The notes beneath the pieces are model-generated. The model was not told where the DNA came from. It saw only the letters and a list, made by a program, of their open reading frames with translations, and did no database searches. From assembly GCF_024124825.1 (NCBI RefSeq), contig NZ_JAMXSS010000002.1, positions 2,790,001 through 2,854,000 of the forward strand: a stretch of DNA of 64,000 nt. Direction: 5' to 3'. This DNA comes from Arthrobacter sp. H16F315 (GTDB taxonomy: Bacteria; Actinomycetota; Actinomycetes; Actinomycetales; Micrococcaceae). How positions within the stretch are numbered: the stretch's first letter is position 1; every line of letters begins with the position of its first letter. Made by a program: the position numbers and the translations under genes. Below are positions 24,885-45,356 of this stretch, one piece after another.

Positions 24885-24995
24885 ACTCCTGACAGACCAA
24901 GCCGGACCCGCTGGATTCATTGTCAGGACCGCACCGCTTACGGTGTGGCCGCGGGAACGGATACATCCACTGAACTACTTTCAAGGAGCATTCCC

Positions 24996-25673
24996 ATGCG
25001 CACATCGATCAAGACTTTCGCCGGTATCGCAGCGGCCGGTTCGCTGATGTTCTCCCTGGCTGCCTGCAGCCCCTCGGACAACGCTTCCGCCGCCCCGGCG
25101 TCCTCCTCGGCCTCGATGTCCGCTGAGGCGCCCAAGGCGCTGGCCTCCATCCCGGCCCTGACCGGGACCTCCACTGCCGTGAAGCTCGATGCCTCCTTCG
25201 CCAAGGCCCTTGAGACCCTGAAGCTGACCCCGGGCACCGTCGGGACCGCGGCACTGACCGATGGTTCGCTGATCTTCCCGATCACCGGCGGCAAGGTCGA
25301 TTACTACGACCCGGCCAAGGACTACCGCCCGTTCGTGCAGGGCCTGATCAGCCACGCCGGTTCCGGGTTCTCCCTGACCGCCGGAGACACCAAGGTCGAC
25401 CTGACCAACTTCACCATCGACCCGGGCACCTCCAAGCTCTACGGCGACGTCGCGGTCAACGGCACCACCGCCGCGAAGCAGGCCTACATCTTCAACCTCG
25501 ACGGCTCCACCCTCAAGCCCCTCGCCAAGGCCGGCGACACCGCCGTCCTGGAAGGGACCCGGGTGCTGATCTCCGACACCGCCGCCGGCCTGCTGAACAA
25601 AACCTTCAAGACCGACGCCGTGAAAGCCGACATGCTCGTCGGCATCGCCAAAATCACCGTCAACACCAAGTAA
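24996..25673 (+). CDS. Secreted lipoprotein, copy A
   Basis: A 225-residue exported protein. The N-terminus is a lipoprotein signal with basic MRTSIKT, a hydrophobic core and the lipobox SLAAC, then a Ser/Ala-rich linker. The folded part (from about residue 48) has TDGSLIFPITGGKVDYYD, the DLTNFTIDPGTSKLYGDV motif and TAVLEGTRVLISDTAAGLLN, a beta-rich pattern found in actinobacterial cell-surface proteins without an assigned function. ATG 24996 has AAGGAG 7 bases before it. Protein is identical to that encoded at 29267-29944. Confidence 0.8.
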   Translation: MRTSIKTFAGIAAAGSLMFSLAACSPSDNASAAPASSSASMSAEAPKALASIPALTGTSTAVKLDASFAKALETLKLTPGTVGTAALTDGSLIFPITGGKVDYYDPAKDYRPFVQGLISHAGSGFSLTAGDTKVDLTNFTIDPGTSKLYGDVAVNGTTAAKQAYIFNLDGSTLKPLAKAGDTAVLEGTRVLISDTAAGLLNKTFKTDAVKADMLVGIAKITVNTK

Positions 25674-25688
25674 CACCCACCGCAAAAG

Positions 25689-25754
25689 CCGCCGGGTGCA
25701 GGGTCTGCACCGGCGGGGCGTGCCACGGTACCTCCTGTTGGAGGTCCGTGGCAC
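25689..25754 (+). terminator. Tandem hairpins after lipoprotein copy A
   Basis: Two GC-rich stems follow the stop codon: CCGCCGGGTGCAG with CTGCACCGGCGG (25689-25716) and GTGCCACGG...CCGTGGCAC extended by ACCTCC/GGAGGT (25720-25754). They lie just outside the duplicated segment. Confidence 0.6.
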
Positions 25755-27502: not shown

Positions 27503-27951
27503 TGCCGGTTGGACCTTGCGAAGCGGGCCCGGCGTTCCAGGATCAGGATGCCGGCGGCGGAGGCCAGGGCAAGTAGCGCCCAAAACCATATCAGGTTCAT
27601 GGCGTAGTCGCCTTCGAGTACCGTGACGGACTGCGCTACCGACTTCGCCTTGAGCAGGATCCCCGCCACCAGGGTCACCAGGACACCGGTGAGAAGGGCG
27701 CCGCGCAGGACGGCGGCGGACGCCGGCTGCAGTTTCGAACCGGTCCGGGTCAGAGCCGCCCCGGCAAGGGTGGAGAGCGGCACAATAACGCCGTCGTGGA
27801 TGAGCACGGCAACGGCCATCCACGTCAGCAGGCCGACCAGCTGCGCCGGACCCAACTGGGTTGGCAGCCCCAGCAGCCCGTAGACAATGATGCCCAAGCC
27901 CGCCATGCCCAGCCCGGCCCGGACGGTTTTGAAAGCAGTTGCACGTTTCAC
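27499..27951 (-). CDS. Membrane protein coupled to the molybdopterin oxidoreductase
   Basis: A 150-residue protein with about four transmembrane helices (MAGLGIIVYGLLGL, LVGLLTWMAVAVLIHDGVIV in part, ALLTGVLVTLVAGILL, NLIWFWALLALASAAGILIL). GTG 27951 overlaps the oxidoreductase stop (GTGA) and has GGAGATCCT upstream. Function unknown; the coupling suggests a partner role. Its end overlaps the convergent mannosyltransferase by 4 bases. Confidence 0.65.
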   Translation of the reverse strand: MKRATAFKTVRAGLGMAGLGIIVYGLLGLPTQLGPAQLVGLLTWMAVAVLIHDGVIVPLSTLAGAALTRTGSKLQPASAAVLRGALLTGVLVTLVAGILLKAKSVAQSVTVLEGDYAMNLIWFWALLALASAAGILILERRARFARSNRH

Positions 27952-29162
27952 AGGATCTCCATACTCTGCAGCCATTTGGTCTGCAGGACTCCGGGACGGC
28001 CGGGGGCGATGATTCTGGCGGGATAGCCATGGTCCAGGTGAAGCACGGACCCATTCAGCTCCAGGGCCACCAAGGTCTTCTCGTCTTGCGTGTACTCGGC
28101 AGGCATGGTCATGGTGCGGTAGGCGCCCTCCGGCTCCAGGCTGGTGAACCGAAGCCGGGATCCCGCGGGGGCGCCGACGGCCGCTACCAGGTCCTGGACG
28201 CGCACGCCCCGCCACTGGGCCAACTGACTCCACCCCTCCACACATGCGATGGGCAACTCTTGGGTGTGCTGGGGCATAGCCCTGAGCTCATCGAGGGTGA
28301 AGGAGCGTGTGGAATCAGCGGACTTGACCACCAGCGCCCACTCCGGGGACATCGCCAGGCCAGCGACCTTGGCATCGCCGGCAGTTCGATTCACGGGCAC
28401 GCCTTGGGGGCCGGTACCCATTTTGCGAGGGGCAAAGAAATTCGCTGGTGCCAGCCAGGAAAAGGACTGTCCCGCCGTTGTTACCACGACGGCTCCGGTC
28501 GCGCCGGTAACAGCAGTGAGGAATGCACGCCGGGTCCAGCGGCCCGGTCCGGATGTGCCGGGCTCGGGAGTTGCCTCCACGACTCCGCCGCCGGCGGGTG
28601 CAGCCGATTCCACGACGGCGGTCTCCTGCGCACGCTTGCTGCGCCAGTGGGCCGCGATGACCGGGAGCTTGAGGGCAATGTGCAGCAGGAGCGAGCCCCA
28701 GATGACCCAAGCCAGCCAGTAGTGGGTCTCCCGGAACGGGAACGGCCACGGATACCATTTGTATGTATTGATCAGCCCGGTGGCCAGCTGCACCAGCGAG
28801 GACGCAACAAATAGGGCAATCGAGGCCCGTTCAAGGCCGTGCACCACCGACTTCACCGGGGGCCAGGCAAGCAGCTCGGGGAAGACCGACCACAGTTTTG
28901 CCAGCAGCAGCGGAATCGCGGCGATCCCTGACGTTACGTGCAGTCCCTGGGTGAGCTGGTAGATCCATACCGGGCTGGTAGGAAAGAACATCCACGCCGG
29001 CGGATTTTGGAGGCCGTGGCTGAAGAGGCCGGTGAGGAAGCAGACGGTGAAGGTGATCCCGAGCCAGCGGCCCAGAACAACGGTCAGGCGTGTGCTGCGT
29101 GTGGGCGAGGCAAACTTTGCCGCCAGCGCCTCGGTGAGCTTCTGCCCGTCAGGCTTTTGCAT
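27948..29162 (-). CDS. Membrane-anchored molybdopterin oxidoreductase (sulfite-oxidase fold)
   Basis: A 404-residue fusion. Residues about 25-185 hold four to five helices with conserved histidines (FSHGLQNPP, QGLHVTSGIAA, LLLHIALKLP), a cytochrome b561-like module. Residues about 230-404 hold the sulfite-oxidase-type Moco domain, with the Mo-ligand Cys in IACVEGWS and HLDHGYPARIIAPG. An RRAFL stretch precedes a hydrophobic segment, as in a Tat-like internal anchor. ATG 29162 is chosen for AAAGGGATC upstream; frame is open to 29225. It likely moves electrons between the quinone pool and a periplasmic substrate. Confidence 0.85.
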   Translation of the reverse strand: MQKPDGQKLTEALAAKFASPTRSTRLTVVLGRWLGITFTVCFLTGLFSHGLQNPPAWMFFPTSPVWIYQLTQGLHVTSGIAAIPLLLAKLWSVFPELLAWPPVKSVVHGLERASIALFVASSLVQLATGLINTYKWYPWPFPFRETHYWLAWVIWGSLLLHIALKLPVIAAHWRSKRAQETAVVESAAPAGGGVVEATPEPGTSGPGRWTRRAFLTAVTGATGAVVVTTAGQSFSWLAPANFFAPRKMGTGPQGVPVNRTAGDAKVAGLAMSPEWALVVKSADSTRSFTLDELRAMPQHTQELPIACVEGWSQLAQWRGVRVQDLVAAVGAPAGSRLRFTSLEPEGAYRTMTMPAEYTQDEKTLVALELNGSVLHLDHGYPARIIAPGRPGVLQTKWLQSMEIL

Positions 29163-29220
29163 ATCTGATCCCTTTAACCGGTCCGTGGCCGCCAGGGCCG
29201 CCCTTTCCTTGAACCGAAAC

Positions 29221-29245
29221 GCCACAGACCCTGGGGGTCCGTGGC
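29221..29245 (-). terminator. Hairpin after lipoprotein copy B
   Basis: GCCAC-GACCC pairs with GGGTC-GTGGC across one mismatch, with a TGG loop. It lies between the lipoprotein stop and the oxidoreductase gene, just outside the repeat. Confidence 0.6.
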
Positions 29246-29266
29246 GTCCGGCTTTTGCGGTGGGTG

Positions 29267-29944
29267 TTACTTGGTGTTGACGGTGATTTTGGCGATGCCG
29301 ACGAGCATGTCGGCTTTCACGGCGTCGGTCTTGAAGGTTTTGTTCAGCAGGCCGGCGGCGGTGTCGGAGATCAGCACCCGGGTCCCTTCCAGGACGGCGG
29401 TGTCGCCGGCCTTGGCGAGGGGCTTGAGGGTGGAGCCGTCGAGGTTGAAGATGTAGGCCTGCTTCGCGGCGGTGGTGCCGTTGACCGCGACGTCGCCGTA
29501 GAGCTTGGAGGTGCCCGGGTCGATGGTGAAGTTGGTCAGGTCGACCTTGGTGTCTCCGGCGGTCAGGGAGAACCCGGAACCGGCGTGGCTGATCAGGCCC
29601 TGCACGAACGGGCGGTAGTCCTTGGCCGGGTCGTAGTAATCGACCTTGCCGCCGGTGATCGGGAAGATCAGCGAACCATCGGTCAGTGCCGCGGTCCCGA
29701 CGGTGCCCGGGGTCAGCTTCAGGGTCTCAAGGGCCTTGGCGAAGGAGGCATCGAGCTTCACGGCAGTGGAGGTCCCGGTCAGGGCCGGGATGGAGGCCAG
29801 CGCCTTGGGCGCCTCAGCGGACATCGAGGCCGAGGAGGACGCCGGGGCGGCGGAAGCGTTGTCCGAGGGGCTGCAGGCAGCCAGGGAGAACATCAGCGAA
29901 CCGGCCGCTGCGATACCGGCGAAAGTCTTGATCGATGTGCGCAT
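29267..29944 (-). CDS. Secreted lipoprotein, copy B
   Basis: Encodes exactly the same 225-residue lipoprotein as 24996-25673 (lipobox SLAAC, Ser/Ala linker, beta-rich domain). ATG 29944 has the same AAGGAG leader. Downstream, past a hairpin, lies the molybdopterin oxidoreductase, so copy B may be linked to that electron-transfer unit while copy A is linked to the mannosyltransferase. Perfect identity points to a recent duplication, ongoing gene conversion or an assembly artefact. Confidence 0.8.
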   Translation of the reverse strand: MRTSIKTFAGIAAAGSLMFSLAACSPSDNASAAPASSSASMSAEAPKALASIPALTGTSTAVKLDASFAKALETLKLTPGTVGTAALTDGSLIFPITGGKVDYYDPAKDYRPFVQGLISHAGSGFSLTAGDTKVDLTNFTIDPGTSKLYGDVAVNGTTAAKQAYIFNLDGSTLKPLAKAGDTAVLEGTRVLISDTAAGLLNKTFKTDAVKADMLVGIAKITVNTK

Positions 29945-30055
29945 GGGAATGCTCCTTGAAAGTAGTTCAGTGGATGTATCCGTTCCCGCGGCCACACCGT
30001 AAGCGGTGCGGTCCTGACAATGAATCCAGCGGGTCCGGCTTGGTCTGTCAGGAGT

Positions 30056-30084
30056 ACTTCGGGAACACCCCCCACCCCGGATGG
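30056..30084 (-). promoter_or_regulatory. ECF-type (SigK-like) promoter of lipoprotein copy B
   Basis: Minus-strand CATCC (30083-30079) and CGAAGT (30061-30056) separated by 17 bases, one more than in copy A because of an extra G. The run length may be a sequencing matter or may change promoter strength. Confidence 0.55.
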
Positions 30085-30215
30085 GTCACCCGGGAACCGT
30101 CACCAACCCGTTACTTATCGCCGGGATGAAAACAGTGAATCGACCCATCTGCCAGGGAGTTCTGAACGACGCGGTTCCTGCCCTGGCCGGCAGGTCCTTG
30201 GCGGTGAGCGCGGGA

Positions 30216-30238
30216 GCGTCAGGTGATTTACCTGACGC
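30216..30238. promoter_or_regulatory. 23-bp inverted repeat upstream of the esterase gene
   Basis: GCGTCAGGT (30216-30224), GATTT, ACCTGACGC (30230-30238) is a perfect 9-bp inverted repeat about 140 bases before the CE7 esterase. Its size suits a dimeric repressor such as a TetR- or GntR-type protein. No regulator gene is adjacent. Confidence 0.5.
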
Positions 30239-30375
30239 TTCAAGTACACCCTGGGCGAAGATGGATTGGCCTACAAGTAGATTTCAGGACAGCGCCAACT
30301 TTGTGGCCTCCCCCGGCCGCCGCTGCGGGGACATAGGATCATTTGCGGACCGTCAGCCCGATACCTGGAGAACCG

Positions 30376-31476: not shown

Positions 31477-34400
31477 CTAGTGTTCCGCGAAGACGCCTTC
31501 GGCAACGTCCAGCCCTGCCTCCATCTCGCTGCTGTCCTCGTGAGAGACCGGGCCGACCATCGTGGCGGTGCCCTGTGTGCCAATAATCGCCTTGGCGGAG
31601 AGCGCCCGCGATACGTTGACCTCAAGCGGGTCCGGATTGATGAGGGCCTTGCTGTGCAGACGAAAGATCGAATTGTTGAACCGGATCTGCACGTTCCCCA
31701 GTCCCGGTGCCGGTACCATCAGGTCCGCGTCGCCGGCGAACGAACGAACGCCGATAACGGGGCCAGGAATGCGTACCGGGTCCGGCGTCGGAAAGACGAA
31801 CACACCAAAAGGCGTACAGGTGCCCGTCCCGGGTTTGCCCCCGCCGGGCACCACCTTGGCCAGGAGCTTTCCGATCATATCCAGCAACGGTTTGGGTAGG
31901 CGCTTTTTGACCCCTGCGGGGATGATCTTGTCCACCGGAACCTGCAGCATAAATCCCAGTCCCGTGTAGCTGTATGCCTGTACCTGGCGGGTCTGGATAT
32001 CACGTATCCGGTACCCTGCGGTGGTTCGAGCGACACCGAGCATACCCGCCGTTCCTGGTATCGGCAGGGACTGGACCTGGTTTTTCAGCGAGGTGAAACA
32101 GATCTCGAAACGATCCGACGATGGCCGCACGGGCGGGGGCCTGAGCCCCGGCGGGTGAACTGATACCTGCACAAGACGCCTGCGCGGGTCCTCGACATTG
32201 GGGACCGCGTCTTGGAAGCCCAACCCGCGCTGATCCCCCATGGTCACTCGTCCCGGCGGAATGCCGGCCGCGGCCAGCAGACATTCCAGGCATCGCGCCA
32301 CCGTTGTCATCCGCCAAAACGAAAGACTCAGGTTGTGATCGACGTTGCCCGTTCTCGAGGCAAAACCATCGACGCTGATTTTCCACCCGGCGTCGGAGAA
32401 GCGGCCCGAGCGAACATCGGCGGCGATCTTTGCCACCAGGATTTGCAGAGCCTGAAGGTGCCGGGCGCGCAAGGCATAGTCGTTGACCTTGTAGTCCCAG
32501 AGTTGAACTCCGTAGACGCGCGGGTCCTGGGTGGTCCGGGGTTCTGCCACTCCCTCCTTCGTTGATGCACCGCCGAGCCGAAACTTGGGTTCGTCGCCCC
32601 GCAGCGAGCCACATACTGGAGCCCGGGTTGAGGGCGCCTCCACTAAAGCGAAGGGTGCAGCCTCCAGGGCGAAGGGACCCGCTTCGTCAAAGGACTCCGA
32701 TGCCTCCGGCGATTCGGCTCCCTCCGCTGCCTCCATCGCCGGCAGCGACTGCATTTCTTCAACTTCAGCGCCCTCGTCCGCGTAAAGCGCCTCGTCCAAA
32801 TACGCTGATTCATCCGTGAACGCGGCTTCGTCCGTCTCCCCGACGGTTGTCCATTCGGCTGCGGGCGCTTCCGGGAGGATGCTGCCCGCCGCCAGCTTCA
32901 CAACGTCCGGTACATCAGCGGACGGATCCACCAGGAATCTCCAGCCGAAATGGCGGGGAATGTTGCCATGGCTGACCCTGGTGCCTTCGACCCGGAAGCT
33001 GGGCGAGGCGGTATTCCGAAGGGCTGCGTGCACGGCCTCGCTGTGTCGGGCCGTTTGCTCCCCTGGCCGGTAGATGACACGGAGGGCGCCCGTTCCGGCC
33101 GCCATTCGGCGCTGGGCCCAGCCGATCAACCGTGCCGGGTCGGTGTAGAGGGCATCGAACGTGTAAATCTCGTGCGGGTTGTTGTGGTCAAGGATTGACA
33201 TCAACGCCGCCCCGCCGCCGGAATGCGCCGTAAGGATCAGCCTGTCCACCGCCACCGTGGCGCCCGTGCTCGCGGTGAATCTCTCAAGGGCGGCCGCTAT
33301 GAGGGCTTGGAGCCCACCCGCTTGGGTCAGCGCCGGAAAGGTATAGCGCTGGTTGTTGTGCCCGGCCTTGGTCCGGGGGCATGGTTGCCGCGCGGCAACA
33401 CCAAGAGCGTCGGTCGGGTCCGGGCAGGTCCGCCCGGCTGCTCCGGGTTTGCGATGTCCAGCCCGCTGAACGGCTCCTTCTCCTTGGCGATGTTCAGGGC
33501 ATATCCGCTGGGCGTGTGTCCATGCAGGTGCACTACCACGTCGACGACGGACGGGCGGGTCATGGCATTCCACTTAAGCACAAGATCGGGATGCGTGCCC
33601 GCGTGTGATGCCAGTAAGGGCAACTCATTAACGACCAGCCTGCCGGCCACCACATCTGATGCGGTCCCCGGACGGGCTGGCGGTATTGGCAGCGGCGGTG
33701 CGGATTTCCGGTGCCGCCTGTAGCTTTCGATTTCGGCGAGCGCCTGGCGGTTCTTGTCGCCGCTGAAGTAAGTCCATTTGGCCCAGGAGCCGCGCACGTC
33801 AATGTGCGCGAAGTTCCCGCCGATGCCGACGCCGATTCCTTCACCGCAGGCGTCGAGCGCCAGCTTCGCGATCTGCATTCCGTTCAAGCCGGCGATCTTG
33901 ATGTCCGCCGCTTGGCCGCTGCAATGGCGGCTGAGCGTTGGGCTCTTCCCCGCTCTGCGGTAGACCGCAACGTTCCGGGCCCAGGAACGGTATCCCGAAG
34001 TGATCTTAACTGGCCGGGCCGCCCGGTCACGGATGGCCTGGAGCGCTGTCACAAGCTCCGCGGAGATCCTCGCCCGGTCATCGGCCCGGCCCCCGCTGGA
34101 GGCGAGTTCGCCCACGGTGAAGTTCCTGGAGAGCTTTTCCTTCCGGACGCCGGCGCCGGTCGCGTAAATGGGGACTCCGGTGTTGTGCGGGTCCCAATGC
34201 TCTTCCCCCTTCCCTTGATTGCCGGGGCTCGGGACCAGTACAAGTCCGGTTTCGAATCCCTCATGATGCTGGCCTGTCAGCAGCGGCTCTGCTGCGAGCA
34301 TTGAAGCAAGTTCGGATTCCTCAACCTCGCCGTTTTCCTGCGCCTGACCGCCCAGTTCCCCGGCGCCGTCGGCGAATTCCTCAGCAGCCTCGTCCGTTGC

Positions 34401-34709
34401 CTCGCCGGCGAATTCATCAGCGCTCTCGTCCGATGCCTCGTCGGCGAATTCATCAGCGCTCTCGTCCGATGCCTCGTCGGCGGTTTCGTCCCAGCCAAGC
34501 TCATTCCAGGCCGCTTCGCCGGTACTCTCGTTCCATTCTGTCTGGCCGGCATATTCGTCGGCATATTCGTCGGTTGTCTCATCCCATGACGTTTCGCTGC
34601 CCCCGCCTGGGATGGAGAACACGCTTGGAGTGGGCCATGACTCGGTGCCAACGTCCGGGACCAGATGCGCCGGGGGCGCAAATATGCTGGACATTTCAAG
34701 CTTTTCCAT
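31477..34709 (-). CDS. M15 peptidase - alpha/beta hydrolase - OmpA-like multidomain protein, frame-broken
   Basis: About 1077 residues when joined. Residues 1-155 are very acidic with repeats such as DESADEFADEA. Residues about 195-330 form an M15_3-like peptidoglycan peptidase: ITSGYRSWARN, SRHCSGQAADI and AHIDVRG supply His, Asp, His zinc ligands. A hydrolase domain follows with HLHGHTPSGYA and the nucleophile AHSGGGAALMS. After a second acidic linker comes an OmpA-like domain (VDGFASRTGNVDHNLSLSFW in part, EDPRRRLVQV), then about 230 residues of unknown type. No signal peptide. The frame breaks at the GGGGG run 33375-33379; one more base gives NHAPRTKAGHNN. Last gene of the operon. Confidence 0.75.
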
Positions 34710-34723
34710 GGTCGTTCTTTCGC

Positions 34724-36066
34724 TCAGAGCCGGGGCCCCGCTGGGGCCCGGTTTCCATTACTAGACGGGACCGTCACTGGAACGGAAGCCCCAGGGCCCG
34801 GGAGCCTGGTGGGCTGCGCTGAACGCAGGTCAAGTTGGGGGCGGCGGGTGGTGATCGCGAGGTCCTTGACCCGCTCGCCGGTGCCCGATTGCCAGAGGTC
34901 GATGATGCGGTTCATGGTTTCGGCAATCTTCGGGTTGGCCACGCCGTCCTTCTTGTAGAGCAGTGTCGCCTTGTCCGTGGCGTTGAACATGCCCAATTCG
35001 ATGAGCCACATCAGGGTGGACACGAGGTCTGCGAGTTCGAACAGCTCACGCGCCTGCCTCGAGGGGGCGATCCCCACCACTTTGCCGATGGCCGACAGTC
35101 GATCGGCTGCATTCCCCAGCCCACCGGCATTGGCATGCAGGTCCACGACCAGGGACGTATCGTATTCAACGGTCAGGTGGAACCAGCTGAGCATTGTGAC
35201 GTAGGCAAATTCCTCCTGCGAAACCATGCCGCCGCGCCGTCGGAGCTGCAGCATTTCGCCGATGGTTTGGCAAAGGTAGCCGATATACGTGGGATCCGTG
35301 GAATTGGAGCCCGAGGAGTTTCTGTCATTTTCGATGCCCATCCAGACCTGCCTGAGCAGTTCGTTCCATAGTTCAAGGAATCTGGTGTTGCCGGCGGTGC
35401 CGATGTTGAGCTTCCAGGGCTGGCCTTCCACGGCCTTCGTTGGAGCGTGCGGCAGGTCCAGCCCAAACATTCGCCAATAGATGTTGCGCCGGTTGATGCT
35501 GGCGTCCGGCCGCAGCTGGCTGGTCATCAGCCCGCCCATTCCGAAAAGCGGTGGATCGCGGAAGAACAGCTGCTCGGTATTCCGCGCCCAAACCAGGGTA
35601 TCCACACTGGGCGCCGGAAGGCTCTCACCCCATGCGTAGCGCCGCACCACTTCGCCCAGGATCTCGAAGACGCCGGTCGCTTCCACCAAGTAGGCGTAGA
35701 GCAGGTTCTCCCACACCGGCGGGGGCGTCAACTTCTGGAATGCGGATGTTGGGTTGTAGGGCTGCAACGGAGTTGGCGAACCTGGCGCCGGGTCAATGCC
35801 GGAAAGCATGGTGTCGCGAAGCAACTGGGGCAGCGTGGTCTTGGTGACGGCGTCCGGATCTCCCAGCGGCACCGGCACCGAACCTCCGCCGCCGAGGATC
35901 GCCTGCCAGGCAGGATTGGCAATTCCGCCTTGGGACCACACTTCTTCCAGCCATCTGCTGAGCTGCAGGGGTGGACGGCCATCACGGCGTTGGCCTTTTC
36001 TTCAAGTTTCCATGCGGGCGCGGGTGAAACTGGATCGGGGATTAGTCCGACTAATGTCCGGAACAT
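34724..36066 (-). CDS. Unknown operon protein, frame-broken near N-terminus
   Basis: About 447 residues when joined. The start ATG 36066 (MFRTLVGLIPDPVSPAPAWK) has AAGGA upstream and lies 2 bases after the previous gene. The frame changes at the GGGG run 35968-35971; one more base gives AVHPPLQLSRWLEEVWSQGG. The rest is helix-rich (YAYLVEATGVFEILGEVVRRYAW, ELADLVSTLMWLIELGMF) with a Pro-rich C-terminus. No signal peptide, no known catalytic motif. I do not recognise a family. Confidence 0.65.
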
Positions 36067-36068
36067 GG

Positions 36069-36638
36069 CTAGTCCTTCACGGTGGCTGAGCCGCCGGTCT
36101 GGCGGCGGGAGGGAGTCTCGGATACTGGGCTGGACGGGACCGGGCGGCCGGTGACCGAGGTCTTCTGTTTGCTGCGGTTCCTGCCCTTGTCGTGGAAGTG
36201 CGGGACTCCCACGGCTAGCGGCTCGCCATGGGCATCCCAGACTTCAACGGAAGCCACCTCCGGGTCCGCGATGACAAGTTCCCAGTACTCGTTGTCGACG
36301 TCGCCTACGGAATAGAACGACTCGAACGGCGGATGCGGGTAGCGCAGCAGGATGCTGGCCGCGCGGCTTGGCAGCGCCTCGACGAAAGTCAAGGTGTAGC
36401 GTGCGTTCCGTGCATCGCCGGGACTGATATCAGGGGATGCGAGGATCGCCTTGTCCGGGGTTTCCCCGTGTCGACCGAAGTTTCCCAGACCGTTGCGGAG
36501 GGCGCGGAACTGCAAAATGAGTTGCTGCTGCTCCGGCCGGAGGTCCTGCTGCGGGCCGCGTCCGAAGGCGCTGACCAATTGGGCTACGTTCTGCGCGAAC
36601 TGCTCGGCAGATCCCTGCGGGGTGTATTGCTCGGTCAT
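36069..36638 (-). CDS. Unknown 189-residue operon protein
   Basis: ATG 36638 follows GGAGAG by about 8 bases. N-terminal part is helical (SAEQFAQNVAQLVSAFG), a middle beta-rich segment (RYTLTFVEALPSRAASILLRY in part, YWELVIADPEVASVEVWDA) and a basic Ser/Thr/Pro-rich tail. Placed between the metalloprotease and the 447-residue gene with gaps of 17 and 2 bases. No family recognised. Confidence 0.6.
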   Translation of the reverse strand: MTEQYTPQGSAEQFAQNVAQLVSAFGRGPQQDLRPEQQQLILQFRALRNGLGNFGRHGETPDKAILASPDISPGDARNARYTLTFVEALPSRAASILLRYPHPPFESFYSVGDVDNEYWELVIADPEVASVEVWDAHGEPLAVGVPHFHDKGRNRSKQKTSVTGRPVPSSPVSETPSRRQTGGSATVKD

Positions 36639-36655
36639 GGTGTCATCTCTCCTGC

Positions 36656-37909
36656 TTATGCAGCGATGGGCCGCTCGCCGCCGAGGCGGCTCAGCCACGT
36701 TCGCATTTCGGTTGGCGTGTTTTGGGACTCGAGGCCGCGGAGTACGCTCAAGGCCAATATCCGCAGCGGCTCCAGCCGCTGCAGATGGTTCGAGGTGTAC
36801 AGCGAGCCCCCTGACCGCTGGGCCAAGCGGTCGAGTTCGGCAGGGGCCAGCCGCCGAGGGTCTGCGAGCGCAGCAAGCGGAACGCCATGGAATGCCTGCA
36901 TCGGTTGGCGCGTGCACACATCCACGATGGTCGGCAGCAGGGGCATGCTCTCGGCCATGATCTCGGCAACCTCGCGGGGAGCCTGTCCCAGCGGGTACCG
37001 GGCCAGCCACCCGGCACCCAGCACGTCCCAGGGCCCGGCTCCGTACCAGGAGCGGCAGAGCGCCACATTAAACTGGACCCGAAGCGCCGATATGGGGTGC
37101 GGATCGCCCGGGAGCATGCGATAGACGAGCTGGGCAGGGCCGTCAACGACCGTCGCCAGCGCTGGTACCGGCGCGTAGCCCAGCAAGGCAAAGGCGTACA
37201 CGTCGCCGGCCACCTCCGCGGCCCAGGCCCGCCATACTTCGGCCAGCAGTGTGTTGTGCGGTGCCAAGGCCTTGTAGAGGGCTGTGCCCAGTTCCGTCGT
37301 CCACCCTGTCAGGTGTGCCACCTGGTGACCGGTCTCGTGGACCAGGGAAGTCGGCTGCCAGAGGTTGTGCCTGGTGATCTTGATGGCAGCCGCCGGCGAG
37401 AGGGAGGAATCCCACAGCCGCGCCCCGGCACGCAGGATGGAGGCTCCCAAGCCCTTGTCCAGATAGCAGAGCGCCGGCGGAGTGTCGATGTTCAACGGCC
37501 GGAGGACCTGGTCCATGCTGTAAACGGCAAGCGCGTCAAGGCCCCGCAGCACCGAAGCCACGACCGGATTTGTCCGGGTGTTGACTGCGTCGCCGTAGAA
37601 ATCGATGACCGCTTCGGCCCGGCTATAGCGGCGCCGCAGCATCAGCAACTCCGACCTAACGGCGGCGAGTTCGCCAACGGTCTCGGCGGCCTTGAGCGAA
37701 AAGAGGGCACGATCGGCGTGGGCGGTGAGGCGAACAACGACGGAGGTCAGGCTCCGGCGGAGGTTCAGGCCAAGATAAGACTCGAGCTCCTTCCACGCCG
37801 CCGGTGACGCCGAAACCTCCAGGTCGCCCAAATCGACGCACGCTCGGCGCCAGTGCCGGATTTCGACACCGAGGGCCGCCCTCGCGGCGGTGGTACTGGA
37901 ATCAGACAT
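36656..37909 (-). CDS. HETGH zinc metalloprotease-like protein
   Basis: A 417-residue protein with HETGHQVAHLTGW at 191-203 (HExxH zinc motif) and an acidic EVAGDVYAF at 232-240 that could give the third ligand. The N-terminal third is helical with many leucines and arginines (MLRRRYSRAEAVIDFYG), the C-terminal third has a hydrophobic pattern LPTIVDVCTRQPMQAF. No signal peptide. The ATG lies inside the end of the preceding gene (8-base overlap), a mark of coupled translation. Substrate unknown. Confidence 0.7.
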   Translation of the reverse strand: MSDSSTTAARAALGVEIRHWRRACVDLGDLEVSASPAAWKELESYLGLNLRRSLTSVVVRLTAHADRALFSLKAAETVGELAAVRSELLMLRRRYSRAEAVIDFYGDAVNTRTNPVVASVLRGLDALAVYSMDQVLRPLNIDTPPALCYLDKGLGASILRAGARLWDSSLSPAAAIKITRHNLWQPTSLVHETGHQVAHLTGWTTELGTALYKALAPHNTLLAEVWRAWAAEVAGDVYAFALLGYAPVPALATVVDGPAQLVYRMLPGDPHPISALRVQFNVALCRSWYGAGPWDVLGAGWLARYPLGQAPREVAEIMAESMPLLPTIVDVCTRQPMQAFHGVPLAALADPRRLAPAELDRLAQRSGGSLYTSNHLQRLEPLRILALSVLRGLESQNTPTEMRTWLSRLGGERPIAA

Positions 37910-40293
37910 GGTGCCATCCCGGCTTCGCCGAAACGGTTGGCGGCCGCAGGGCGGCTGTCGGATGTCCGCTAACCGATGTGAAGGTCACGGTGAGGGTGAC
38001 GCCGGAGGCCGGGTCCGCGACGGCGGCGGCCAGCTGCGCGCCCCGCTGGACCAGGTATTTGGAGATTGCGGTACCCGTTGACGCTGCCATGGCTGCGGCG
38101 ATCCGGTTCGCTGCAGCAGGATCGCTCACCAGGGAGGAGCGCAGCAGCCGTCGGCTGATTTTCCTTGTCAGGTCGGGAAGGTAGATGGCACGAAGTTCCG
38201 AGAGCACGGCAGGCAGATCCCGCTGTCCCGAGGGGGCTGAGCGTTGGATGGATGCCAGCAGCGCCCGGGCCCGGCGCTCCGAGAGCCTGATCGCTATCCT
38301 CAGTTGCCTGCCGGCCGGATCCCAGTCAATGACGAGCAGCCGTCTGGGCCGGGCGCTCTTGCGTGCGGGCAGCTGCCCGGCGCGGATCCGGAAGTAGCGC
38401 TGCCCCGGCACCGGCTGCTGTGCCAGGGGGAATCGATGCAGCGCCAGCGGCGCGCGTCCAAGCCCGGGTTCCCGCAACAGCAGGCCCGCGGCTTCCGCTG
38501 TCAGGGGCTGGAATTCGTTGTCGACCGGGTGCTCGCCGGCAGGCAACCCTTCGTCTCGAGTGAAGTGGCCCGGTATCGTGCCCGGCAGCGTCTCGTAAAG
38601 GTCGATCTCCGCCTGCACGGGCCAACGGTCAACGCCCCGGTCCAACAGGTACGTTTCCATCGTCCCGCCGTCGGACCATCTCAAGGCCCGGGCCTGCTGC
38701 CGGGTGATCGGGACGGCGAAGACCTGCGAGTATTTGCGGAACCGGTACCGCGGCCGCAGCGAGCGCGGCATCAGGATCCAGTAGCCGTCTGAGCCGGCAG
38801 ATTCACGTTCCGGCAGATCTGCCCGCAAGAGCCGGTCGGGCAGGTAGGCCGCGGCGGCCCGCGAAAACGCACGCTGGACCGCGGCACTGACCTGGAGGGG
38901 GTCCTCGAGCGCTTCATCGGTGATCTCGTCAAGAACTTCCATGGCCGTCGCTTCTACCGTGGAGGCCAGGGCCTCCCCGGACAGGGACTGTTCCTGCTGC
39001 GGGCTTGTCTCCAGGCCCAGGGCGGTGAATCCAACGTCGACCCCGGCCTTGGCAATGAGCCGTGCCGCCTCCGGTCCCACCATCCCCTTGATCAGATTCG
39101 CCAGCGGAGTGGCAATCAGGTTGATGAGCTTTCCCCGGGCGCCGGTGAGTTTCAGTCCCAGCTTGAGCAGCGGCCGGATGGCAAGTACAACCGGCAGGAA
39201 CTGTTCAATTTCGGCCGTTGGCGGCTCGGTTCCGGTGTGCTCACTCAGCGCGCTGGCCAACCTGGCGCGTGCATCATCCAGCCCGGCAGCCTCGTCAAAC
39301 TCGGGCTCGATGTATTCCGATTCGTCGAATTCCCCGGATTCTTCACCGGCGGATTCGACCGGGTACAGCAGGTTTACAAGTTCGGTGTCAAAATTCTGTG
39401 CCAGCGCGCCCGCGGACCCCGCAATTTCGTCGGTTTCGGTCGCCGGGAACTCCCCCGCCTCGTCAAGACCAAGCTTGGTCATCAGGATCTTCACGGCCGG
39501 CCGCACATAGGAGGGCAGCAAGCGGGTCAGCGGGGCGGCCAGCTTCTTGACCACGCCCTTGAGCAGGGCCAATCCGATTCCTTTGAGTCTGTTGAGGATA
39601 GGTCCGATCAGGTGCTTGCCGATGGTCTGGATGCCGCTTTTAATCGTCTGCAGCCCGCTCTTCGCCAGGTCGATAACGCCCTTCACCGGGTTCTTGATGA
39701 AGTTCCCTGCCTGGCGGACCCTCTCCTTGATGAAAGACTTCGCCTTTCGCAGCAGCTTTCCCAGAAAGTTGTCGAAGACCTCCGATCCGAGGGTGGGCGC
39801 CGGCTCCAGGGAGTCCAGGAGCTCGTCCAGTTCCTGCTCGCTCAGTCTGGTCAAATCGGTATTTTCCAGGCCCCCGCCGATCCTGTTGATCGAGTTTTCC
39901 CATTCATTTGTCAGCGGATCGATCCACTCATCGAGCGCCTCGCGGGTTCCGGCATCCGTCGGCGCCTGCAGACCATTCCTGGGCATCGGCCAGCACACGC
40001 GAGGCTCCCTCGTTGAGCAGTTGTTCGAGGGCGTCCTCAAATTCCTCGTCATGGAGGGTTTCGAGGAAATCGCGTGCTTCAGCCGTTTCCCGCTCGACGT
40101 CGACTTCGCTGTCAGCCTCGGCGCCAAAGGGGGAATCCGTGTAATAGATCGCTTCGAACAAGGCGTCACCGTGCTCCTCCAAAGGAGCTTCGGCCCCAGG
40201 GGCTGCCTGATCGGTGAAATGCGAAAGCCCCGCGAACGGGGAGGTATAGCTCCCGGCTTCTCCGGAAGAAGCCGAATAGGAATCGACGCTCAT
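37902..40293 (-). CDS. Large acidic/cationic helical protein of unknown function, frame-broken
   Basis: About 796 residues when joined; ATG 40293 has a strong GGAGGTGGG site. Residues 1-110 are acidic (DSEVDVERETAEARDFLETL in part). Residues about 177-267 form a strongly basic, amphipathic helical block with repeated Lys/Leu/Ile spacing (KLLRKAKSFIKERV, IGKHLIGPILNRLKGIGLAL, VVKKLAAPL). A second acidic patch follows (GEESGEFDESEYIEPEFDEA), then a C-terminal half with RYRFRKYSQVFAVP and a final beta-rich region. The frame breaks near 39965-39975; deleting one base gives EWLQAPTDAGT. No homologue with known function recognised. Confidence 0.65.
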
Positions 40294-40374
40294 TTTCCCA
40301 CCTCCGTTATTCCTCTTGTTCCCATGATCGGGCCCGGTGTCTTCCCGGCCGTCAATCCTGCGTATCTTCCCGCG

Positions 40375-40700
40375 TCAGCCGCCGCCCCGCGGCGGGACCG
40401 CCGCGCTCCGGGGACCGGGACCGCCGAGTTCTTCCAGCAGTCGCTCGACCAGCACACACACCTCGTCGACGCTGGCGAAGACCCATTGGCGTGCCGGGTC
40501 GGCGGGGTTCCCCCGGTCAGGATGCGGACGATCAGCTGCCCCCCGTCCCGCCTGGCCCGGATAACAATGATCTGGTAGTCGGTATATTCCACTTCTGCAG
40601 CTTCCCGCCCGGCCATCGTTTGCGGCGTCAACGTTCCGTCCGCGTTGACACAGTGTTGACACCGGGTGGACGTCGGAGTCTGATGATCAAAGTGATCCAT
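40375..40700 (-). CDS. Unknown 108-residue protein, first gene of the operon, frame-broken
   Basis: Joined product contains EVEYTDYQIIVIRARRDGGQ, LIVRILTGGTPADPARQWVF and ASVDEVCVLVERLLEELGG, a compact alpha/beta pattern. The frame changes at the GGGG run 40504-40507, where one more base gives TGGTPADPARQW. Start could be ATG 40700 or ATG 40613 (MAGREAAEVEY). Only 29 bases separate 40700 from the divergent SARP gene, so promoters overlap. Confidence 0.55.
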
Positions 40701-40729
40701 TCACGGCCGCGTATCCGGGGAGGGCCCTG

Positions 40730-41491
40730 ATGCACCCATCACATCGTCCCGTCGTGGCACACCCTGACGGGCGGGTCAGCCTTTCGCTACTCGGAGGGTT
40801 CTCCTTGCGCATCGCCAACGCCCCGGTATCGTTGCCGCTGCACGCCCGCCGCGTCATCGCCTACCTATCGCTGGACAAGCTCGGGGCACACGACTGCGAC
40901 CGGACGGTGCTGGCCGAACGGCTGTGGACGGACTCAACGTCCGAACGTTGCCGCGGAAGCCTCCGGACGGCACTCTGGCGGATCCGCAGCGCCGATTCGC
41001 GCCTGATCGATGGGGACTCGGACCGGGTGTGGCTAGCCGACGACGTCGAGGTGGATGTGCACCGCCTGCGCCGACAGGCAGAACGGATACTGACCGATGC
41101 GCGCGGTGAACCCGAACATTCGCAGTTTCTGGCACATGCGGAGGAACTTCTTCCGGGTTGGGACGAGGACTGGCTGTTGCTGGCCCGCGAGCAGCTGCGC
41201 CAGATGCGCCTGCACGCGTCCGAGGTAACCGCGCGCAGGCTTCGTGAACGGGAACGCTACATCGAAGCCATCGACGTCTTGCTGGCGGTAGTTGCCGAGG
41301 AGCCGCTGCGTGAGTCCGCGCAACGGCTCCTGATCGATGCTCATCTGGGCGAAGGCAACGTATTCGAGGCCAGGCGGCAGCTCAACGGATATGCCCGCCT
41401 GCTGTGGACCGAACTGGGGTTGCGCCCCTCGCCGGAGTTATTCAGGAAGGTCGGCTTGGTCATGCCAGTGCAGGGAACTGCGACGCACTAG
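40730..41491 (+). CDS. SARP/BTAD transcriptional activator
   Basis: A 253-residue regulator. Residues 15-105 form an OmpR-like winged helix (RVSLSLLGGFSLRIANAPV, RTVLAERLWTDSTSERCRGS in part, LRTALWRIRS). Residues 110-250 are the bacterial transcriptional activation domain (VDVHRLRRQAERILTD, ESAQRLLIDAHLGEGNVFEA, ARRQLNGYARLLWTELGLRP in part, PSPEL). SARPs bind direct repeats near -35 and switch on secondary-metabolite or accessory clusters. ATG 40730 has GGAGGG 5 bases upstream. Divergent from the operon and convergent with the M1-like gene. Confidence 0.9.
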   Translation: MHPSHRPVVAHPDGRVSLSLLGGFSLRIANAPVSLPLHARRVIAYLSLDKLGAHDCDRTVLAERLWTDSTSERCRGSLRTALWRIRSADSRLIDGDSDRVWLADDVEVDVHRLRRQAERILTDARGEPEHSQFLAHAEELLPGWDEDWLLLAREQLRQMRLHASEVTARRLRERERYIEAIDVLLAVVAEEPLRESAQRLLIDAHLGEGNVFEARRQLNGYARLLWTELGLRPSPELFRKVGLVMPVQGTATH

Positions 41492-41495
41492 TTGC

Positions 41496-43159
41496 CTACG
41501 CCGGGAGCAACAGCGCCGATACCCTGGTCCGTGGCGAGGGGTCGCAGCCGCGGGCATGCACCGAGGCCACCAGCATCGTCCCGGTCCACGACCTCTGCCT
41601 GAGGGCTTCCGATGCCGTCGTCCAGACTTCTCGTTCTTCCCCTGGTTGGAGATCGAAGCCCCCGGTGGCGGCGATGTTCCGGCAGGCCCCCGCCGCCCGC
41701 TCCCCACCCGTAGCGGCACCGGCCAACGAAAACACCACCATAAAGTGCCTGCAAGCACCGCCCCCGAAGTCGTTGCTCACACTGACCCGAATCCGGTCCC
41801 CTGCACCCCGGGCCACCAACCCATGGAGCCGAAGCTTCGGAGCCGGCGCCGGGTCGGGAAGCCCGTAAACAAACCGGTGGAAGGCATCGACCACAGACGT
41901 CTCACCGCCAGCAACCAGGATGTCTGCCTCCAGCCCGATCGTGGAAAGCGGAGCGTTGCAATGCCGGGCGTACACGGCCCGCATGCAGGCGCGCAGGAGT
42001 TCCACCCCCAGCGCGTCGGCCAGCCCGCGAAAGAATCGGCTACCGTCCGTATAGGCATTGACGGCAGTCCGGCGGTCAAAGGGACGCCGGGAACACAGTT
42101 CCACCGGGGATTCATTGAAGTCGAAAGCCTCCAATTGGACCGCACCGTGCTCATGGTAGGAGGTGAAGGCCTCGTCCCACCACCCGTCGGCCTGCGAGGC
42201 CGGCATGACCCCGCGGGAAAACCAGGAATGGAAAACCTCGTGGGCCAGCGCCCGCCGGGATGTGGTGGCCCCATGGTGGTATTCCATCCCACCGCGGTTG
42301 CCGTTGAAGAAGCAGACGAACCGGTTCCCCGGGAACCTGCCGTAGTCCGCCTCGTTCTGCGCCAGCAGACACTCGATCCTGCCCAGCTCATGGCCGAGGT
42401 CCTCCGGTCCGGCGGAGCATTTCCATGCCTCGACAGTGACGGCGGTGCCCGAGACCGGTAATACCACCGTCGACCTCTGGCCCTCGACGGTGGCCGCCGG
42501 GCGGAGCTCCACAAGGTGCGAAAGGGTGGTGAACGACGCCGGGAATGCAACGGACCAGCGTCCCGGGCCGCCAACGGCAACGTCCCCGTTGCTGATCAGC
42601 ACGTGCGCAACCTCCGTCCCTGTCAGGGTGATGTTGAGGGTGACGGGGAACTGGTCGAACGGAAGGTTGGAGGGAAACCAGGCTTCCAGGTAGCGGCCCG
42701 CGAAGAGGTCCGACATGCCCAGCGTCCAACGCAGCGCGGGACCGCCGGACCACTCCAGCACCGGCGGCGAGGCCCCGCCCAGCTCAGCTTGCGGCAACCC
42801 CAACCGGTAGACGAACCGAAGGCTGTGGACGGACCCACGGTCTTGGAACCGGCGCAGGACCCGGACGGAGCCGGCCGGTCCAGCACCGACGTCGCACCCG
42901 CCGATCATTTCCGGATCGAGCGGCACCCCGTCCAGCCAGCAGCTGTCCACACTCTGACGTAAATCGAAAAACGGGTTGCCCCGGTGGGACCCACCCGATA
43001 ATCCATCGTCGCCGCGGCCACTGACGTGCCCCGGACTGCATCAAAGGACACATCGGCCCGAAGCTCCAGGACGTGCACGGGGACCACCATCAAGCTGCCG
43101 GCCAGGGTTGCCGGCGGGGCATTGGAAAAGTCCGCGGCCCCAGGGCCCGTGCCACTCAC
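41496..43159 (-). CDS. M1/M61-like metallopeptidase, frame-broken near N-terminus
   Basis: About 554 residues when joined. The N-terminal beta domain begins near GTG 43159 (ADVSFDAVRGTSVAAATMDY) and continues in the other frame after the CCCC run 42979-42982; one more C gives GPTGGNPFFDLRQSVDSCWL. The catalytic region has RGGMEYHHG, the zinc motif HEVFHSW at about 307 and the third ligand in WWDEAFTSYHEH about 19 residues later. A C-terminal immunoglobulin-like stretch follows. No clear signal peptide. It ends 4 bases from the SARP stop. Possibly an aminopeptidase linked with the SARP cluster. Confidence 0.75.
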
Positions 43160-43378: not shown

Positions 43379-45356
43379 ATGACCACAATGAGCAGGCCGC
43401 CTGCGGACCCCTCGGCGGCGCGGCCGGGTGCCCGTGAAAACTTCAGGAGCTGGCTCCTGTTCGGCCTACAGGACGCAAAGGGCACCCACCAAGGGCCCGG
43501 TGCCGTGAGTGAATCGCATCTGAAGAAGCATCCATGGTGGCAGGTGATGTGCCTGACCGGCGTCGACTACTTCTCAACCCTGGGCTACCAGCCGGCCATC
43601 GCAGCGCTCGCCGCCGGTGTGATCTCGCCGCTGGCGACGATGGTACTGGTGGCTGTCACACTGTTGGGCGCCCTTCCCGTCTACCGCCGGGTTGCCGGGG
43701 AGAGCCACCGCGGCGAGGGTTCCATCGCCATGCTGGAGCGGCTGCTGCCCCGTTGGGGCGGCAAGCTTTTTGTGCTCGTTCTGCTGGGTTTCGCCGCGAC
43801 GGACTTTATGATCACCATGACGTTGTCTGCGGCCGACGCCACAGCCCACGCGATCCAGAACCCGTTCGTTCCGGGCTGGCTGCAAGGCCAAAACGTGCCG
43901 GTGACTCTTTTCCTGCTGGCCATGCTCGGCGCGGTCTTCCTCCGCGGGTTTAAAGGAGGCCATGGGCGTCGCGGTCGTCCTGGTCGGCATTTACCTCAGC
44001 CTCAACGTCGTGGTGGTGATCACCACCGTCCTTGAAGTGCTGGCCCACCCTGTTGCCGTCGGGGACTGGTGGACCGCCCTGACAACCTCCCATGGCAACC
44101 CGTTTATGGTGGTCGGCATCGCCCTGCTGGTCTTCCCCAAGCTCGCACTGGGCCTGTCCGGCTTCGAGACCGGAGTGGCCGTGATGCCGCAGATCCAGGG
44201 AAAGCCGGGTGACACCGAGGAGAATCCGGCCGGCAGGATCGAAGGTGCCCGGCGGCTGCTGACAACCGCCGCCGTCATTATGAGCACCTTCCTGATCACC
44301 ACCAGCTTCACGACAGTGATCCTGATCCCGGAGCAGGAGTTCCAAACGGGCGGCCAGGCCAACGGCCGAGCCCTGGCTTTCCTGGCCCACGAATACCTGG
44401 GGGCAGGGTTCGGCACTGTCTACGACGTGAGCACGATCGCCATTCTCTGGTTCGCCGGCGCGTCCGCGATGGCCGGGCTGCTCAACCTCGTCCCGCGGTA
44501 CCTTCCCCGCTACGGGATGGCCCCGGGGTGGGCGCGTGCCGTGCGTCCGTTGGTCCTGGTGTTCACATTGGTCGGATTCCTGATCACATGGCTGTTTAAT
44601 GCCGACGTCGACGCGCAGGGCGGTGCCTACGCCACCGGCGTCCTGGTGCTGATGACCTCCGCAGCGGTTGCCGTGGCGCTTTCAGCCCGGCGCGCGAGGC
44701 AGCGCAAGCGGACTCTGGGTTTTGGCCTTATCGCAGCGGTGTTCATCTACACAACGGTGGCCAACATCATTGAGCGCCCCGAAGGCATCCGGATTGCAGC
44801 GATCTTTATTGTGGGCATCATCGTGATCTCGTTGCTCTCACGCGTCCGGAGGGCCTTCGAACTTCACGCCACCCATGTCCATCTGGACCGGCAGGCACTG
44901 GAATTTATGTCTGCCGATTTGGACGGGCCCATTGCCATCATCGCGCACGAGCCGCTGCGCCTGAGCGCCACGGCCTACCGGGACAAGCTGACATCGGCGA
45001 TCCAGGTCAGCCACCTGCCGGTGGACTACCAGGCGTTGTTCCTGGAAGTGGTCGTCGACGATTCCTCTGACTTTGAAACGGCTTTGGAGGTGCGAGGGGT
45101 GACCCGGCACGGGTACAGGGTCCTGGAAGTCCACGGACCCGTTGTGCCGAACACCATCGCCTCAGTGTTGCTCCACATCCGGGACGTGACCGGATTGATG
45201 CCGCATATCTACTTCCGCTGGACCGAGGGAAACCCGGTCACCAACCTGCTGCGCTTCCTCGCGTTCGGTGAGGGCGAGATCGCCCCCGTGACCCGTGAGG
45301 TGCTCCGGGAGGCCGAACCCGATGTCACCAAACGGCCCTGGGTCCACGTCGGCTGA
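43379..45356 (+). CDS. APC-superfamily permease, probable potassium importer, frame-broken
   Basis: About 658 residues when joined. It begins with a cytosolic segment and the family stretch [20 protein letters not shown], then about twelve helices and a C-terminal cytosolic domain of about 190 residues. The frame changes at AAA 43952-43954; with one A fewer it reads [17 protein letters not shown]. General architecture (12 helices plus cytosolic domain) is like KimA potassium/proton symporters. Position 5' of kdp and a shared upstream motif support a potassium role; a polyamine or amino-acid substrate is the alternative. Confidence 0.72.

Follow-up and report, generated by a model that had tools for sequence, protein, structure and literature searches.

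A conserved operon of three core proteins and exchangeable wall-cutting cargo in Arthrobacter and other Actinobacteria, with no export signal seen in the Arthrobacter proteins

The locus described here, carried by some soil bacteria, raises the question of how wall-cutting enzymes leave their cell, or reach another one, when no export signal can be seen on them; such a combination suggests a route of release or delivery that was not known before. The locus lies in a stretch of 64,000 nucleotides from Arthrobacter sp. H16F315 (contig NZ_JAMXSS010000002.1, positions 2,790,001 to 2,854,000), hereafter the window. Six genes follow each other on the minus strand: g1 (40290..40700), encoding a small protein of 136 aa as read here; the core genes g2 (37902..40293) and g3 (36656..37909, 417 aa); g4 (36069..36638, 189 aa), less conserved and without an assigned family; the core gene g5 (34724..36066); and the cargo gene g6 (31477..34709). 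The pairs g1/g2 and g2/g3 overlap, and the gaps from g3 to g4, g4 to g5 and g5 to g6 measure 17, 2 and 14 bases. Divergent from the operon, and starting 29 bases from g1, is a plus-strand activator gene (40730..41491), whose product belongs to the SARP regulators by its BTAD domain (PF03704, E 3.6e-12). An accessory gene for an M1-like peptidase with an HEVFH motif (41496..42950, minus strand) converges on it; the match to Peptidase_M1 (E 4.6e-4) stays below the family cut-off. The order, strand, spacing and neighbours given in a preliminary description of the locus thus agree with the positions of the open reading frames (ORFs).

The six-gene operon of that description is real, but g2, g5 and g6 are interrupted by frame breaks in the window assembly, and g1 is probably broken as well, as judged by eye. 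Accordingly, g2 is read here from an ORF at 40293-39928 and a second one ending at 37902, and g6 from an ORF at 34709-33327 and one ending at 31477. The start codon of g5 is at 36066, while its in-frame ORF is listed from 35941 and lacks the N-terminus because of the frame break. In a genome of the same species (L051), the three genes are single ORFs of 796, 447 and 1077 aa, and the M1-like ORF has 566 aa compared to 484 aa in the window. Across a 16.6 kb alignment of the window with L051, none of the eight indels is a multiple of three, in the operon or outside it, and the breaks therefore look like assembly error, with gene decay as the alternative to be kept in mind.

The operon is also conserved. 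The genes g2, g3 and g5 co-occur in 30/30 loci, and the refuting case named in the preliminary description, genes that are not found together elsewhere, does not apply; since the loci were collected through g3, this linkage holds for carriers of g3. The hosts of the core trio are Actinobacteria together with one metagenome bin each from Verrucomicrobiales and Phycisphaerae. A g2 homologue is also listed for Pseudarthrobacter chlorophenolicus A6. Gene order is kept across loci as g2-g3-(g4)-g5, with cargo genes that vary between loci behind the trio; in three of 32 loci, all from Streptomyces, a cargo gene behind g5 was not recognised. The g4 profile matches in 18 of the 30 loci, and six other loci have small ORFs of 77-119 aa, g1-like by eye, in the interval from the SARP gene to g2. 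The SARP gene has a BLAST match at E ≤ 1e-5 in 18 of the 29 other loci, 13 times upstream of and divergent from g2. The M1-like gene is present in 7/30 loci (five of the seven in Nocardia). The claim of three protease domains in the set was therefore overstated: the M15 domain belongs to the cargo, g3 to the core, and the M1-like gene to a minority of loci, even though the HETGH motif of g3 and the HEVFH motif are both present as described.

Searches of Pfam, NCBIfam, PHROGs and PADLOC gave no match above cut-off for g2, g3 or g5, none of nine proteins scanned matches a PADLOC anti-phage family at E ≤ 0.1, and a narrow literature search returned no description of the gene system. A search with both types of g3, that of the window and that of a sister locus, gave 4720 protein clusters at E ≤ 0.001 out of 7998 with a score, and in the 120 matches listed the names given by the sources are hypothetical or uncharacterized. 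The protein g3 carries the motif HExGH (HETGH in the window copy), followed 36-37 residues on by ExxxD, and both are invariant in 24/24 g3 rows (A3) and 8/8 rows in A4. An HExxH motif with a downstream glutamate characterises the gluzincin-type zinc peptidases, and g3 is predicted to be such a peptidase with its complete site kept. In g2, about 730-950 aa long as called, an acidic N-terminal tail precedes a basic helical segment and then more acidic and basic stretches; the N-terminal part is negative and the next segment positive in 24/24 proteins, and the acidic tail of the window copy contains two [ST]PF motifs. A clear transmembrane span was not seen in g2, and 22 of 30 copies have at least one moderately hydrophobic stretch above 1.6 (Kyte-Doolittle, 19 residues). 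The protein g5 is all-helical (predicted model, pTM 0.70). Neither its model nor that of g2 has a convincing match among solved folds, so that their role cannot be read from structure.

A sister locus, found in Arthrobacter, Ensifer, Rhizobium and Paraburkholderia, combines a homologue of g3 with an acidic glycine-zipper protein, c0. The charge pattern of c0 resembles that of g2 (N-terminal part negative, next segment positive, 8/8), its zipper match is weak and below the Pfam cut-off, and its C-terminus ends in a conserved tail, G[RKT]WxRxxxx[IV][IV]. Profile comparison relates the two proteins with an hhalign probability of 83.6, and hmmsearch with the g2 profile finds one of nine c0 proteins (E 4.6e-7), leaving the other eight unmatched; the matching region is central in g2 (residues about 308-441) and does not fall on the basic segment.

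The absence of signal peptides stated in the preliminary description is borne out by a simple hydropathy measure applied in the species of the window, by which no start tested shows a signal-peptide-like hydrophobic stretch: g1-g4, g6 and intact g5 score 0.28-1.07, the M1-like protein 0.99 and the SARP protein 1.45, compared to 1.83 for a lipoprotein encoded in the window. In g6, a weak leader (ESWPTPSVF) and an acidic tract precede an M15 peptidase (Peptidase_M15_3, E 2.9e-13, as had been described; PHROG phrog_894, named endolysin, E 3e-24), a hydrolase-like part with HSGGG (by eye) and an OmpA-like part. The latter, described earlier as a cell-wall-binding domain, has weak NCBIfam matches (E 0.011 and 0.055) far below the cut-offs. 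Among 30 cargo proteins from 24 loci, Peptidase_M15_3 was found 13 times, Glucosaminidase 11, PG_binding_1 and VanY 5 times each and Phage_lysozyme2 twice. Cargo thus varies, yet mostly carries wall-cutting or wall-binding domains, and the view of the operon as a co-conserved set with wall-acting proteins that lack a visible signal peptide stands.

Two short N-terminal leaders occur on cargo. Leader 1, WPx[RK]xDVF, was trained on nine esterase-type cargo proteins and finds the cargo of locus L013 at 23.3 bits, compared to a best score of 16.8 in 20 rounds of 511 shuffled proteins; the part of this protein behind the leader was compared by BLASTP with eleven cargo proteins and matched none of them (best E 0.70). 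Leader 2, trained on three VanY cargo proteins, finds the cargo of L022 at 52.8 bits, with shuffled sequences reaching up to 21.9 in ten rounds, and the BLASTP pairing of L022 with VanY cargo is restricted to the leader (E 9e-9; best E behind it 0.25). In L013 and L022, neither of which was used for training, an N-terminal region is thus common to non-homologous payloads, as in polymorphic toxins, with a single convincing case for each leader beyond its own cargo family. Leader 1 is weak in g6, and its scores do not rise above chance in L014 (13.7 bits, compared to a mean of 13.8 for the shuffled maxima) or in the second Nocardia cargo (8.9 bits); in L015-L018 it was not seen. Being found on otherwise unrelated cargo, the two leaders behave as a targeting tag would.

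The best explanation, which we hold tentatively, is an undescribed system that stores wall-cutting enzymes and then releases or delivers them without Sec or Tat. The mechanism that we infer would start with the SARP activator inducing g1-g5 together with at least one cargo gene. The protein g2 might be membrane-active and kept quiet by its acidic tail, in analogy to an acidic pro-region masking a basic peptide; upon firing, g3 might cut the acidic tails off g2 and the cargo, which g5 or g2 could hold by the leader. Cargo would then cross the membrane at g2 and digest the peptidoglycan of neighbours or, as programmed lysis, of the producer itself. In its specific form, a Sec-independent release or delivery in which wall hydrolases with a leader tag, perhaps also nucleases, exit by way of an acidic membrane-active protein that a protease triggers, this proposal is possible and somewhat more doubtful; its range would comprise Actinobacteria, Pseudomonadota with the sister form, and single metagenome bins of Verrucomicrobiota and Planctomycetota.

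The same enzymes could be a cytosolic store freed by lysis alone, i.e., SARP-controlled bacteriolytic public weapons, for which the core would serve as internal chaperone, protease and inhibitor. SARP regulators usually control antagonistic metabolites, and acidic tails could hold hydrolases soluble and idle, which, like the hydropathy of the protein starts, fits this reading. However, it leaves unexplained both the association of three core proteins of such size with hydrolases that change and the leaders common to otherwise unrelated cargo, and we consider it rather unlikely. Those shared leaders with varying payloads would be expected of an interbacterial weapon similar to polymorphic toxins, with the core as delivery structure and the cargo as toxins, nucleases included; moreover, sister loci contain a GIY-YIG nuclease domain adjoining PG_binding (L058) and retain a protein that matches Tox-REase-9 weakly (E 0.0099). 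However, inspection of the locus maps by eye showed no conserved small gene next to the cargo that resembles an immunity gene, and this explanation appears unlikely.

Export of cargo and g2 as type VII (ESX-like) substrates, a path also suggested in the preliminary description, with leader and core as chaperone and processing factors, is favoured by an EccC-like ATPase in 10/10 carrier genomes, each with a best E of 1.8e-90 or lower, compared to six of ten non-carriers of the genus below 1e-89. However, these matches stay below the family cut-off in all ten carriers, an EccC match is found in all ten non-carriers too (one above cut-off), and in the window genome the ATPase gene shares the contig with the operon at a distance of about 0.7 Mb. 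In addition, the sister locus is carried by Rhizobium and Paraburkholderia, in which type VII secretion is, to our knowledge, not known, and we regard this route as improbable. It is very unlikely that g3 acts as an HExxH protein in peptide modification or RiPP maturation, with g2 and c0 as precursors instead of machine parts: its relative P0107 is named 'HEXXH motif-containing' by its source, c0 has its conserved tail, and a PLP enzyme and an amidohydrolase are encoded in sister loci, whereas g3 and its sister homologue have no NCBIfam match at E ≤ 0.1 and the length of g2 is unlike that of a precursor peptide. Finally, delivery of the cargo by an extracellular contractile injection system (eCIS) is scarcely credible, the contractile route proposed in the preliminary description being unsupported by the search for Phage_sheath_1 (PF04984; 0/10 carrier genomes, a set that covers 10 of 11 known carriers of this type in the genus, with the positive control matched in 3/14 genomes) and g3 being without a Pfam match, even though eCIS loci carry HExxH proteins and wall-acting toxins.

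Should the core of the proposed storage and release system export or release wall hydrolases, it would represent a new route through the bacterial envelope in which a short address tag can be exchanged; should the producer lyse, it would represent a new form of programmed lysis that is regulated in the manner of an antibiotic. In both cases, many 'hypothetical' genes would become one testable system. Its newness rests on the core families rather than on a demonstrated mechanism.

Among known systems, polymorphic toxins have a constant N-terminal part and an exchangeable C-terminal payload, whereas the constant part here is a short leader and an immunity gene was not recognised. In eCIS loci, a DUF4157 HExxH protein and exchangeable wall-acting effectors share one locus as they do here (PMC8213781). 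However, g3 has no DUF4157 match, a sheath gene was not found in the ten carriers searched, and the core differs. The T6SS effector Tde1 has a glycine-zipper segment proposed to open the membrane for the toxin (PMC10240207), a feature that recalls the weak zipper match of c0. Tde1 rides the T6SS, however, whereas no injection machine was recognised here and the c0 zipper is below the Pfam cut-off. Holin-endolysin cassettes are phage lysis modules, from which the operon differs by the added peptidase g3 and the helical protein g5; no holin family was matched by the window proteins in Pfam and PHROGs, g2 having no clear membrane span, and g3 finds no match in 50,697 phage records and no relative among 83 viral-contig candidates. 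What the operon and these cassettes have in common is a wall hydrolase without signal peptide, the M15 part of g6 with its match to phrog_894, named endolysin (E 3e-24), next to a suspected membrane-active protein, and the working principle of the operon might be that of a holin and an endolysin with a protease trigger and exchangeable, leader-tagged cargo.

The window's minus-strand operon (g1 to g6, window 40700 to 31477), divergent from the gene of a BTAD-type activator (SARP) on which an M1-like peptidase gene converges, is borne out by the gene layout, as outlined in the preliminary description. Its genome comprises 4.2 Mb in 5 contigs, with the window at 2790001-2854000 of contig C2. Among the operon-region proteins, Pfam recognizes only the M15 domain of g6 and the BTAD domain of SARP, besides a sub-threshold M1 match, and g1-g5 have no above-cut-off match in Pfam, PHROGs, NCBIfam or PADLOC; a few matches at chance level occur (e.g., the first g2 piece with HK97-gp10_like, E 0.098). 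A protein of Arthrobacter sp. UYCu512 shares 99% identity with g3, and narrow literature queries turned up no publication describing these genes as a set.

A core trio, g2, g3 and g5, recurs as a set elsewhere. A g3 scan of a collection of one genome per species (84,980 species), sensitive to close relatives only, yields 29 loci, in Nocardia, Arthrobacter, Pseudarthrobacter, Rhodococcus, Streptosporangium, Geodermatophilus, Amycolatopsis, Naasia, Kineococcus, Streptomyces, Nonomuraea, Virgisporangium and Actinomadura, as well as in two metagenome bins, one assigned to Verrucomicrobiales and one to Phycisphaerae, where the contigs may be wrongly binned. By iterated profiles, all three genes are present in 30/30 loci (these and the window) and g4 in 18/30; the loci were gathered via g3, so this linkage is established for g3 carriers only, and L020, L024 and L030 are cut or broken. 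The low genome counts in a phylum sample (396 genomes: g3 in 1, g2 in 1, g5 in 2, one g5 match being partial) and in the genus (g3 in 18/206, 11 of window type and 7 divergent at ~27% identity) indicate that the system is sporadic; g5 adjoins g3 in 11/11 window-type genomes. SARP has a protein match in 18/29 other loci (E <= 1e-5), 13 of which carry it upstream of and divergent from g2. In Nocardia loci L002-L006, a second SARP-like gene lies beside the M1-like gene (3.9-4.7 kb). Two proteins are encoded beside a further core locus, at 14482-19049 of L057: one of 560 aa contains an 'AGNRAM' stretch, presumably resembling proteins associated with extracellular contractile injection systems (eCIS), and the other, of 472 aa, matches GoxA/LodA at chance level.

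In the window, g2, g5 and g6 each occupy two frames, and g1 is probably split as well. At L051, a locus of the same species (genome G542), g2, g5 and g6 are single ORFs of 796, 447 and 1077 aa. Along a 16.6 kb alignment of the two (97.9% identity), 8/8 indels, located both within and outside the operon, are not multiples of three, as are 3/4 and 1/1 in flanking alignment pieces. Breaks also occur beyond the operon, since a neighbouring permease-like transporter gene (identified by eye; 43379-45356) is split over two frames and whole in L051 (658 aa). Assembly error is the simplest reading of these comparisons, and decay in the window's strain may be an alternative; the sequence is used as assembled, with breaks uncorrected. 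Window 24827-25691 and the 27452-30317 region both match L051 ~17242-18108 (~97%), as a duplicated lipoprotein-like gene.

Behind g5 lie changeable cargo proteins, of which 30 were scanned, from 24/32 loci (the 29, the window, L051 and L057). Left out were L020, L026 and L029 (contig ends behind g5), L021, L023 and L024 (no co-directional gene recognized), and L030 and the window copy, both broken. At E <= 0.001, these 30 proteins match Peptidase_M15_3 (13), Peptidase_M15_2 (13), Glucosaminidase (11), PG_binding_1 (5), VanY (5), PG_binding_3 (3), DUF4056 (2), Phage_lysozyme2 (2), DUF2272 (1), Pesticin (1) and DUF2515 (1). By manual tally over several scans, one or more matches to M15, VanY, glucosaminidase, lysozyme or PG_binding are present in 19/24 loci. 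Outside these are L004 (first cargo protein alone scanned; the second resembles M15 by tblastn), L018 (Pesticin, slightly under the Pfam cut-off), L015 (DUF4056), L017 (DUF2515, below cut-off) and L022, whose cargo has no family match. A DUF4056 protein is presented as a candidate T6SS effector in one published study (PMC11669294), which bears on the cargo of L015 and L057.

Several cargo proteins share a short N-terminal leader. The first, WPx[RK]xDVF, is common to nine esterase-type proteins, mostly near residue 25; a matrix built from these and run on 511 called proteins picks the remaining esterase-family cargo and then the cargo of L013, which is a PG_binding protein, at 23.3 bits (maximum in 20 rounds of shuffled sets, 16.8). 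The L013 leader itself pairs with esterase-family cargo (BLASTP E 0.04), and the protein behind it has no BLASTP match to eleven such proteins (best E 0.70). L014, at 13.7 bits, is at chance level and counted by position only, and WPVREN of the second Nocardia cargo (8.9 bits) likewise does not rise above chance. Another leader, HWAYxxxTPFRPVHEIL, comes from three VanY cargo proteins, and its matrix picks the L022 cargo at 52.8 bits (shuffled maximum 21.9, ten rounds); L022 aligns with a VanY cargo in residues 38-76 only (BLASTP E 9e-9), with no match behind them (best E 0.25). The BLASTP results on L013 and L022 make the leader evidence slightly stronger. The first leader is not seen in cargo of L015-L018, and [ST]PF takes its place in L015, L018 and L057; leaders thus occur on differing cargo types, yet not in every locus.

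In g3, H191-E192-x-G194-H195 and E232-xxx-D236 are kept in 24/24 aligned rows, and likewise in 8/8 rows of an alignment taking in a divergent sister type, a layout typical of gluzincin peptidases. Near the N-terminus of g2, PF is invariant, mostly as [ST]PF, and charge alternates alike in 24/24 proteins (mean charge -24 through residue 156, +14 across 157-222, next -13, -9 and +18), several N-termini in this set resting on unverified start codons. The AlphaFold model of g2 is disordered at the start, helical in the middle and mixed at the end (pLDDT 70.6, pTM 0.53), and that of g5 is all-helical (pLDDT 67.9, pTM 0.70); neither has a convincing match among solved folds.

Sister loci with divergent g3 homologues occur in Arthrobacter (L052-L056) and, plasmid-borne, in Ensifer, Paraburkholderia and Rhizobium (L058-L060). 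When the two g3 types serve as queries, 4720 of 7998 scored protein clusters match at E <= 0.001. Each sister locus combines one or two acidic c0 proteins, the g3 homologue and c4 (~530-745 aa as called; uncalled in L060), all without a family above cut-off; a PLP enzyme, an amidohydrolase and an AAA protein are frequent companions. The c0 proteins have a glycine-zipper-like stretch (Gly-zipper_Omp, best E 6e-4, under cut-off) and end in G[RKT]WxRxxxx[IV][IV]. Profile comparison relates c0 to g2 (hhalign probability 83.6), the likeness falling in the middle of g2, and the g2 profile matches 1/9 c0 proteins (E 4.6e-7). The Rhizobium cargo (L060) combines PG_binding_1, DUF2272 and Glucosaminidase, and the Ensifer cargo (L058, 18303-19235) fuses PG_binding_1 to a GIY-YIG nuclease domain via an acidic linker. 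Tox-REase-9 weakly matches (E 0.0099) a ~205 aa protein of L056 (14051-14671), possibly a nuclease toxin, which has relatives in L052-L055 and is thus kept in 5/5 Arthrobacter sister loci.

None of the core and cargo proteins of the window's species starts with a hydrophobic signal-like stretch, confirming the earlier reading, by a simple hydropathy test rather than a signal-peptide predictor (0.28-1.07 for g1, g2, g3, g4, g6 and intact g5; 1.83 for a window lipoprotein). For the type VII-like path suggested at first, an EccC-like ATPase is found in 10/10 carriers and also in 10/10 non-carriers. The contractile-injection route is not borne out, with a sheath gene in 0/10 carriers. The linkage among g3 carriers, the cargo type, two leader-sharing cases, the zinc site and the charge pattern are observed, and we propose a holin-like, protease-triggered release of leader-tagged wall hydrolases, in which g2 would act on the membrane, g3 would do the cleaving and g5 or g2 would read cargo; we infer these roles, and likewise the target of the hydrolases. 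Among known systems, HExxH proteins and wall-acting toxins are described for eCIS (PMC8213781). In another study, a glycine zipper lets a T6SS toxin permeabilize membranes (PMC10240207), which provides an analogy for c0 only.
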